The notes under the pieces: generated by a model
Databases searched by the model: none
Seen by the model: the letters and a program-made list of their open reading frames with translations, nothing else
Told to the model about the DNA's origin: nothing
In this document: in pieces, positions 42,701-62,523 of the stretch
Layout: each line of letters starts with the position of its first letter
Numbering within the stretch: the stretch's first letter is position 1
Made by a program: the position numbers and the translations under genes
Source: Bdellovibrio sp. SKB1291214
GTDB taxonomy: Bacteria; Bdellovibrionota; Bdellovibrionia; Bdellovibrionales; Bdellovibrionaceae
NCBI RefSeq assembly: GCF_002209355.2
Contig: NZ_CP106855.1
Span: forward strand, 124,001 to 188,000
Reading direction: 5' to 3'
Length of the DNA: 64,000 bases

Positions 42701-42727
42701 TCAACTCTGTTCTTAAAATGCCGATAA
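42701..42727 (+). promoter_or_regulatory. sigma-28 (FliA)-like promoter of the patatin gene
   Basis: TCAACTCT, 11-base spacer, GCCGATAA. The -10 equals the sigma-28 consensus GCCGATAA and the spacing is the canonical 11; the -35 matches TAAAGTTT at five of eight positions. The identical -35 octamer and spacing recur at 61310. ATG 42765 lies about 30 bases beyond the expected start site. Confidence 0.7.
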
Positions 42728-60650: not shown

Positions 60651-61271
60651 GTGCTACCATATGTGAAATACAAGGACTTCGTTTTGCAGAAACAACTCTC
60701 AAACCTTTTTGTCGGCACTCAACCTCTGGATTTATCTCAGACGCTGGAACGTTATGCTTGCGTGTCGTTGATTCTGCGTGGACCGTTGGACGATTTACAG
60801 ATTGGTTTTATCCAACGAGCTGTTCAACCGAATGATCGTTGGTCAGGACAAATAGCTTTTCCCGGCGGAAAAAAAGAAGATATTGATTCGTCTGCTTTGG
60901 CGACGGCTCTTCGTGAGACGCAGGAGGAAGTCGGTATCATTTTGACGCCCGATGAAATGGTAGGCCGCTTGGATGATATACAGGCGCGTAAAGCGGGTTC
61001 TTTGTTGGATTTCTTCATACGCCCTTTCGTGTTTTATACTGAGAGAGATTTTGCGATCCAATTAGATCCGAATGAAGTGGCAGATTTCTTTTGGGTTCCC
61101 CTTAAACAGCTGGATAATCCCGATCGCAAAACCACTTATGAGCTGACTCGCGAGCAAATGCTGCTGCAGCTTCCAGCCATTTCCTTGGACCGCGAGATTC
61201 CACTCTGGGGTTTGTCTTATATGATCACTCAGGATCTTTTGATTAGACTAAAAACTCAGATCTCATTTTGA
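60651..61271 (+). CDS. Nudix hydrolase, CoA diphosphatase (NudL/YeaB) type
   Basis: 206 residues from GTG 60651; a TTG at 60684 (AAGGAC ahead) is an alternative start. Pattern LILRGPLDDLQIGFIQRAVQPNDRWSGQIAFPGGKKEDIDSSALATALRETQEEVGI is the NuCoA motif followed by the Nudix box, specific for CoA pyrophosphatases. Degrades CoA or oxidised CoA to adenosine phosphates. C-terminus short compared with some members. Confidence 0.85.
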   Translation: MLPYVKYKDFVLQKQLSNLFVGTQPLDLSQTLERYACVSLILRGPLDDLQIGFIQRAVQPNDRWSGQIAFPGGKKEDIDSSALATALRETQEEVGIILTPDEMVGRLDDIQARKAGSLLDFFIRPFVFYTERDFAIQLDPNEVADFFWVPLKQLDNPDRKTTYELTREQMLLQLPAISLDREIPLWGLSYMITQDLLIRLKTQISF

Positions 61272-61309: not shown

Positions 61310-61336
61310 TCAACTCTCCAAAGGTCTAGCCGATAG
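61310..61336 (+). promoter_or_regulatory. sigma-28 (FliA)-like promoter of the 29-codon ORF
   Basis: TCAACTCT, 11-base spacer, GCCGATAG: the same -35 octamer and spacing as at 42701 with one base different in the -10. A TATAAT at 61338-61343 overlaps the start-site region and could be a separate sigma-70 -10. Confidence 0.65.
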
Positions 61337-61382
61337 GTATAATATCAGAGGCCACGTAGGTGGCGAGCGAAAGGAGCCTTGA

Positions 61383-61472
61383 ATGGCACTCAAGCATGTA
61401 GCACGTTTGGAACACATTCTATCCACGGAGATTCGTGAATTGAATGACCTTCTCGAGACAGGACCACCGTAG
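61383..61472 (+). CDS. 29-residue micro-protein candidate
   Basis: ATG 61383 follows a near-perfect ribosome site (AAAGGAGCC), has a promoter ahead and a strong terminator behind, and no longer gene in between. Sequence MALKHVARLEHIL then STEIRELNDLLETGPP: an amphipathic helix with hydrophobic heptads, soluble, no Cys. Too short for family recognition. The expression signals are the main argument; it may also be an abundantly transcribed small RNA whose ORF is incidental. Confidence 0.5.
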   Translation: MALKHVARLEHILSTEIRELNDLLETGPP

Positions 61473-61512
61473 CTACCATCCTCCCAGCCTAGTAATAAAT
61501 GGGAAGATTAAC

Positions 61513-61550
61513 TAAAAAAAACCAGAACGCGTTTCGTTCTGGTTTTTTTG
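61513..61550. terminator. bidirectional intrinsic terminator
   Basis: ACCAGAACG/CGTTCTGGT stem (61521-61529, 61535-61543) with A- and T-runs on either side, ending both the 29-codon transcript and the barrel-protein gene. Confidence 0.85.
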
Positions 61551-61566
61551 TTTTTAAAAGCAATCC

Positions 61567-62523
61567 CTACAAAATCGAGAACGTCGTCGCAAAATTCACA
61601 GTCGTTGAGTCTGCAGAAAAAGTCTTAGGATAAAAATTAAAATACGGAGCAAAGTACACATCACGAGTGAAAGCGTAACCAAAGCCCAAACGTTGGCTGA
61701 GAGTTCTGTTCCACAAGACTGTGTTATCTTCAGTCCCGCGTGGGTTATTGAAATTTAGCGCCAAAGAACTGTAAGTGCTGAACTTGTCCGAGAATGCATA
61801 TTTAATTTGTGGATAAAAGCCTAAAGAATAGCGGCCTGTCGTAAGCTCTTTCTTAGCTTTTTGATCTGGTCCACGATCAAAGAAATAGTAATTAAAAGAA
61901 GCATCAATACCGACACCTACACGACTTGTCCCGAAGTTGTATAAAAGAGAAGTATCGTAACCCACACCCGCATATTCGCCAATGTCACGGTAGGTTTGAT
62001 TTGTTACGTAAGTAGCACTTACGCCATTTCGCATCTGCAGATCACCCACGCGCCCGTTACGGTCATAGCTGATATATGGATTCTTTGCCTCGTAACGGCG
62101 AGTTTCTTCATTGAATGGCGTCAGCATGTTTACGCCAGTCCCCAAAGACAATGCACTTTTAGAATCGAAACGGAAACGAGTTCCGAAAGAACCACCAAAA
62201 GATGTATCGCAGGCGCACACGCTGCCATCTGGATTTGGTTGTTTGTCATCAGATAGTCTGCCCACCGGAGGACCTGAATAGCTTAGAGAGAATTTCAAAG
62301 AATAGCGAGACAACGAACCTGAATCCGCTTTCATGCGTGCATCTGTGATGTCTTTATCGTCTTCAAATTTTTTATTTAAAACAGTTCCGGTTTTCAACGT
62401 GGAGGTTTGAGTGCCTGACTCAGCTTCTGTTGCCACGGGGCTTGGCAAAGACAGTTTAGAGGTTTGTCCAAAGGCATTGATCGACAGTCCAAGAAGGGCC
62501 GAGGCCAAAATTGCTTTGCGCAT
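61567..62523 (-). CDS. outer-membrane beta-barrel protein candidate
   Basis: 318 residues. Signal peptide 1-19 (ending AFGQ). From about 75 alternating polar/hydrophobic strands with many aromatics (SLKFSLSYSGPP, SFGTRFRFDS, SLLYNFGTSRVGVGIDASFNYYFF, YSLGFYPQIKYAF, FATTFSIL) suggest a 12-14-strand porin-like barrel; the C-terminal residue is not aromatic, so the usual beta-barrel signal is weak. One CAC pair. Function unknown. Confidence 0.7.
   Translation of the reverse strand: MRKAILASALLGLSINAFGQTSKLSLPSPVATEAESGTQTSTLKTGTVLNKKFEDDKDITDARMKADSGSLSRYSLKFSLSYSGPPVGRLSDDKQPNPDGSVCACDTSFGGSFGTRFRFDSKSALSLGTGVNMLTPFNEETRRYEAKNPYISYDRNGRVGDLQMRNGVSATYVTNQTYRDIGEYAGVGYDTSLLYNFGTSRVGVGIDASFNYYFFDRGPDQKAKKELTTGRYSLGFYPQIKYAFSDKFSTYSSLALNFNNPRGTEDNTVLWNRTLSQRLGFGYAFTRDVYFAPYFNFYPKTFSADSTTVNFATTFSIL

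Follow-up and report, generated by a model that had tools for sequence, protein, structure and literature searches.

Within the 64,000-nucleotide stretch of the genome of Bdellovibrio sp. SKB1291214 analysed here (the window; host genome of 3.68 Mb, single contig), a short expression cassette is found on the plus strand. It is bordered on one side by a NUDIX gene (60651–61271; Pfam NUDIX, E 1.5e-12) and on the other by a convergent ORF of 318 residues without Pfam match (61567–62523, minus strand), for which the label “barrel gene” used below is a guess. The cassette starts with a FliA (sigma-28)-type promoter, TCAACT-N13-GCCGATA (61310–61335), composed of the boxes TCAACT (61310–61315) and GCCGATA (61329–61335) and a 13-nt spacer, CCAAAGGTC (61316–61328), which is conserved to the same degree as the boxes. 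Downstream follow a 5′ untranslated hairpin with the arms GCCAC/GTGGC (61351–61364), the Shine-Dalgarno sequence AAAGGAG (61370–61376; AAAGGAG or AAGGAGG across the genus), a 29-codon ORF, MALKHVARLEHILSTEIRELNDLLETGPP (61383–61472; ATG at 61383, stop codon TAG at 61470–61472), recognised by conservation and codon tests, and a weak, possible 3′ untranslated hairpin seen by eye, ATCCTCCCA/TGGGAAGAT (61478–61508). The unit is closed by an intrinsic terminator with the stem AACCAGAACG/CGTTCTGGTT (arms 61520–61529 and 61535–61544) and a T run (61520–61555). Promoter, strong ribosome site, 29-codon ORF and terminator were all found where the preliminary description of this DNA had placed them. There is one copy of the cassette in the host genome; the sole further search match is the opposite strand of the terminator. 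In this genome only, a perfect TATAAT (61339–61344) overlaps the start region; the relatives have TATGAT or TATGAC.

In the consensus fold, the terminator is the only well-supported structure, with compensatory changes at 4 of 11 stem pairs (22 sequences), and a weak 5-pair helix connects the ribosome-site region to codons 17–18. Hairpins of differing sequence are present at the position of the 5′ hairpin in about nine of the 24 genomes of the genus and there is none in the rest, while a hairpin similar to the possible 3′ one is contained only in G000, G015, G017 and G022. A hairpin inside the ORF (CACGAA...TTCGTG), considered as a conserved element, was discarded; it occurs in many species, but inspection shows its pairing disrupted in the HD100 group and elsewhere.

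The ORF is present in all 24 genus genomes with a length of 27–30 codons, and it always ends in Gly-Pro-Pro-stop. By single-sequence tblastn, which the preliminary description had proposed together with a look at synteny, the peptide is recovered in 22 of these genomes (E ≤ 1), and in the remaining two (G004 and G013) it could be read behind the matching promoter; a peptide profile, built from most of the genus sequences that it then matched, retrieves all 24 (E 1e-20 to 8e-13) and, in addition, G034 of another genus. A comparison of neighbours at the 24 loci (~3 kb each) revealed both flanking genes, NUDIX and barrel, at 18 loci, the barrel gene alone at four and neither of them at two (G020 and G023); in G005, G008 and G012, the cassette sits at its usual place between these two genes but in the opposite orientation. 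Given that the cassette is kept despite changed neighbours and inversion, it is relocated and inverted as a whole. This is the reverse of the pattern that the preliminary description had named as speaking against a functional ORF, namely its loss beside retained flanking genes. Among curated families, there was no NCBIfam match (22 members), no Pfam match (3 members) and no Rfam family at the locus.

Length differences of the ORF among the 24 genus genomes comprise whole codons only. In the tail, the Gly and both Pro residues are conserved in 24/24 genomes and the Thr in 23/24, with free wobble positions; this concerns the Thr codons (ACG 10, ACC 7, ACA 5, ACT 1), the Gly codons (GGT 11, GGG 8, GGA 4, GGC 1), the first Pro (CCA 18, CCG 4, CCT 2) and the second Pro (CCT 13, CCC 4, CCA 4, CCG 3). 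The stop follows directly after GPP in 24/24 genomes, encoded as TAA (15), TAG (5) or TGA (4). The pN/pS ratio is 0.51 for gap-free codons (0.54 for all codons), with column shuffles averaging 1.00 (sd 0.21) and 0 of 300 reaching a value as low, and variability by codon position is 0.37 at the third versus 0.22 at each of the first and second positions, in line with the dominance of third-position changes that had been suggested as a check. By these codon comparisons, the ORF is under protein-level selection. Because of this selection, which becomes evident from the wobble in the TGPP codons, the whole-codon indels, pN/pS and three different stops at one position, the RNA known from B. bacteriovorus HD100 as APsRNA5 is most likely a mini-mRNA rather than a non-coding RNA. 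The initial suggestion of a “micro-protein or a regulatory RNA” is, hence, supported, and the codon evidence favours the translated micro-protein.

APsRNA5 was described as an attack-phase RNA of ~176 nt (605,441–605,617, minus strand) and classed as an sRNA (Karunker et al. 2013, PMC3627812). In genome G003, the ORF (605,512–605,598, minus strand) falls within these coordinates and the published 3′ end lands in the T run of the terminator; a check of the coordinates located the c-di-GMP-I riboswitch (1,073,868–1,073,951, minus strand) within the published merRNA. The cassette is, by place, strand and 3′ end, the orthologue of the HD100 APsRNA5 locus. APsRNA5 reaches 388,842 RPKM in the attack phase and 73 in the growth phase (5,295-fold), a level second only to merRNA among eight HD100 attack-phase sRNAs and the largest fold change of all (PMC3627812), which agrees with the expectation of an abundant attack-phase RNA expressed in the preliminary description. 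By our own arithmetic, the RPKM value corresponds to ~226,000 reads or ~7% of the count of protein-coding-gene reads; the same formula yields 3.0 million reads for merRNA, in agreement with the figure in the paper. In the same part of the paper, it is stated that ORFs with blastX homologues at 1e-4 were dropped, and no homology outside B. bacteriovorus is reported (PMC3627812). A fragment of the predicted APsRNA5 peptide is EIRELALLTETGPP. ORFs behind ribosome-site-like sequences are also contained in other HD100 attack-phase sRNAs, i.e., in APsRNA2 (MLMVKNVDITKAEVTSS), merRNA (MRTHEHHDDELK), APsRNA6 (~100 codons) and APsRNA7 (74 codons), and these four may likewise be mRNAs.

Sigma-28-type −35 and −10 boxes in proper spacing are conserved in 24/24 genus genomes and in G034, as also seen in an alignment inspected by eye; when 3 mismatches at most are allowed, the pattern has one match in each of these genomes. 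It is absent from 41 other genomes of the family that were searched, and the reversed control gave 0/66 genomes. The spacer consensus CCAAAGGTCYA in the 24 genus genomes is conserved beyond what FliA should need, and an additional factor may bind there. A second exact TCAACT-N13-GCCGATA is present in the window at 42701–42726, ahead of an ORF starting with MAKKSGMVLSGGGARGAYQAG, which presumably resembles a patatin-like phospholipase. Based on the boxes, FliA would be the sigma factor of the cassette. The “FliA-driven” claim of the preliminary description is supported at the level of sequence; however, the mapped 5′ end of HD100 (605,617) lies 25 nt beyond the last base of GCCGATA (605,642), in the 3′ arm of a 5′ hairpin, the usual distance from the −10 box to the 5′ end being 6–8 nt. 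Also against it, the FliA column is blank for APsRNA5 in the published HD100 table; the attack-phase promoter consensus published there is TTAAG-N16-CCGATA (PMC3627812).

Altogether, 33 of 143 genomes of the class carry the peptide, comprising the 24 of the genus and nine in three other genera; beyond those 33, the next match among the 143 (E 0.015) is not credible. Diverged members with the features ...E-L-L-E-L...ETGPP are found in 6/6 genomes of one genus (g19; E 2.5e-4 to 0.015) and in 2/2 of a second (g4; E 0.07 and 0.47), with FliA-like boxes ahead of them as judged by eye. The g4 match is weak in the first profile and strong in the second, the E-values of which are not independent because this profile already held both g4 and four of the six g19 members. 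Residues follow GPP in five of the nine genomes outside the genus (G034, G061, G063, G026 and G027), and the stop is, thus, not always adjacent to GPP.

At all eight g4 and g19 loci, the peptide is preceded by a tiny ORF of 5–7 codons (M...[RK]PDI-stop) that has its own ribosome site. The pattern of ribosome site, ATG and RPDI-stop occurs in 4 of 140 genomes of the order, all at peptide loci (reversed control 0); as the loci themselves had served to define the pattern, the informative part is that it has no match elsewhere. Just after the [RK]PDI stop, a hairpin covers the Shine-Dalgarno sequence of the peptide in 7 of 8 minimum-energy folds, G027 being without it, where five of the eight folded stretches extended into the ORF because a late start was chosen. 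A ribosome on the upstream ORF would, according to these folds, be expected to open the hairpin over the ribosome site of the peptide. In an RpoB tree of 26 genomes (26 of 27 rpoB loci; the truncated G061 copy was left out), the ETGPP genera fall in three places, requiring 3 changes, and a single origin without losses gains no support from it. The peptide could either be an old family element that was lost or has diverged elsewhere, or a mobile one; if the upstream [RK]PDI ORF is ancestral, the genus of the window would have lost it.

The explanation that we favour, with somewhat better than even confidence, is that the cassette is a stand-alone mini-gene, the product of which is an abundant attack-phase mRNA encoding a trans-acting 29-residue micro-protein with slow termination at GPP. 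In this scenario, sigma-28 (FliA) would transcribe the short, highly abundant mRNA, and ribosomes would load at the strong Shine-Dalgarno sequence and produce a micro-protein predicted to consist of a helix (approximately residues 3–23) and a flexible E-T-G-P-P tail that is almost invariant. It would act in trans in the attack phase, docking on a partner via its EIREL part and the ETGPP tail, and the Gly-Pro-Pro-stop end would probably also slow termination; FliA as the sigma factor, translation, docking and slow termination are what we infer, whereas the anatomy, the conservation, the selection on the protein and the identity with the APsRNA5 locus are shown by the present analysis. Since no family matches the peptide, any binding partner is a guess. 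AlphaFold2 predicts, for the 30-residue G014 orthologue, a helix at residues 3–23 and an unstructured tail (mean pLDDT 80). The attribute “amphipathic” given to the peptide in the preliminary description holds for the peptide of the window (helical moment p = 0.011 versus shuffles), but it does not clearly extend to four orthologues (p 0.09–0.33). According to a review, pausing and tmRNA tagging are promoted by Pro-Pro at the C-terminus, where this pair is under-represented in bacterial proteins, and Gly-Pro-Pro causes an arrest that is relieved by EF-P (PMC3985003); given these stalling properties, the invariant GPP end is unlikely to be neutral. Small proteins are under-represented in a TMT proteome study, in the part of it covered (PMC12546842).

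A more tentative reading, to which we assign a limited share of our confidence, is that of a dual-function RNA, in which the transcript, besides encoding the peptide, would act as RNA through its middle segment (GAGATTCGTGAATTG and adjoining sequence), by base-pairing or protein binding. It draws on the frozen codons of the ORF: 9 of 10 conserved E/I/R/L/V columns use a single codon in ≥95% of the genomes, while the frozen share of the conserved columns is 1 of 49 for the barrel gene and 0 of 7 for the NUDIX gene, with columns taken at 80% conservation for the ORF and at 90% for the genes, and with T, G, P and A also counted in the barrel set. Furthermore, the choice of GAA versus GAG is position-specific, and ATT, GTA and GAG of the frozen middle are not among the favourite codons of EF-Tu. 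As proof of an RNA role, however, the frozen codons are weakened by EF-Tu itself, which served as control and has 66 of 131 E/I/R/L/V columns frozen in 22 genus genomes (22 of 23 loci; the truncated G012 copy was left out, and G020 has none), i.e., about half as much freezing as the ORF. High expression, hence, explains part, perhaps most, of the freezing, which in turn fits high expression of the ORF. No conserved structure was found in the ORF, and GAGATTCGTGAATTG has no conserved antisense target among 10 loci examined in 4 genomes. Its antisense matches numbered 20, 16, 13 and 12 versus 2, 3, 3 and 4 in the reversed control (self matches included); those of the examined loci that recur between genomes are sense-coding, one of them lying in a gene which we take to resemble pilB. 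A second, RNA-level role of the middle of the transcript is possible.

It is unlikely, in our estimation, that the RNA is a ribosome-parking mini-mRNA, in which strong loading and the Gly-Pro-Pro stall would hold ribosomes in non-growing hunters, the peptide being merely the stalling device; ribosomes stored or queued on the mRNA would be freed on prey entry, and in the related genera the [RK]PDI ORF would gate the peptide by melting the hairpin. The invariant GPP with its fixed stop position in 24/24 genomes is consistent with this, as are the very high RNA level (PMC3627812) and the pausing at, and rarity of, C-terminal Pro-Pro in bacterial proteins (PMC3985003). However, the helix is conserved as a protein across genera, which is more than a stall alone needs, and residues beyond GPP occur in the five genomes mentioned above. 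A purely non-coding regulatory RNA with an incidental ORF would accord with the published sRNA class, as given in the covered part of the paper (PMC3627812), and with the frozen central nucleotides, but we regard it as very improbable and rejected it on the codon evidence, namely the codon-position pattern, the in-frame indels, the fixed stop position and the amino-acid conservation across genera. Scarcely any weight is given to a leader peptide controlling a neighbouring gene. The short ORF with its stall-like end would suit such a role, and the [RK]PDI ORF and hairpin of g4 and g19 are arranged like a leader, though one that would act on the peptide itself; the terminator directly after the ORF and the variation of neighbours between species led to its rejection, and in the window the next gene is on the opposite strand.

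Of the favoured mini-gene, the RNA is already known under the name APsRNA5. Its interpretation as a conserved mini-mRNA, the four-genus peptide, the FliA-type box and the upstream-ORF variant were not found in the literature searched. This literature, on small proteins and RNAs of Bdellovibrio (most subscription papers and supplements being outside its coverage), contained no publication on the peptide and no function for APsRNA5, the name of which occurs there only in Karunker et al. 2013 (PMC3627812). In the portions covered, a 2025 expression-toolbox paper makes no mention of sRNA or APsRNA (PMC12622784), and a paper on proline codon pairs has nothing on GPP (PMC8129111). Should APsRNA5 be an mRNA, a dominant micro-protein of attack-phase Bdellovibrio may have gone unrecognised, and the peptide and RNA hypotheses are separable by one start-codon mutation. 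The invariant Gly-Pro-Pro end, together with the [RK]PDI ORF and hairpin in other genera, would bear on translation pausing in hunting-stage cells.

Compared with known systems, the small, abundant RNA encoding a small protein is shared with the dual-function sRNA SgrS/SgrT, whereas here an RNA function is only a candidate. With APsRNA5 as published, the cassette has the locus in common by coordinates, strand and terminator end; the difference is that APsRNA5 was presented as non-coding and with no FliA promoter marked in the part of the paper covered (PMC3627812), while a putative mini-mRNA is proposed here, in which both the ORF and the FliA-type box are conserved. The sigma-28-dependent sRNAs of E. 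coli and Campylobacter, according to the portions of the sources covered, are likewise short RNAs made via the motility sigma factor, but they are base-pairing regulators (PMC10578931, PMC11187230), in contrast to the present RNA, for which no target was found among the loci examined and which encodes a conserved peptide. TnaC, SecM and the ErmC leader are arrest and leader peptides, from which the cassette differs in that there is no controlled downstream gene in the genus of the window and that stalling is predicted from the GPP motif. TnaC and SecM are treated as arrest peptides in the covered part of PMC3985003. The likeness to these three lies in the short ORF, in a proline end that possibly slows termination and, in g4 and g19, in an upstream ORF beside a hairpin masking a ribosome site.
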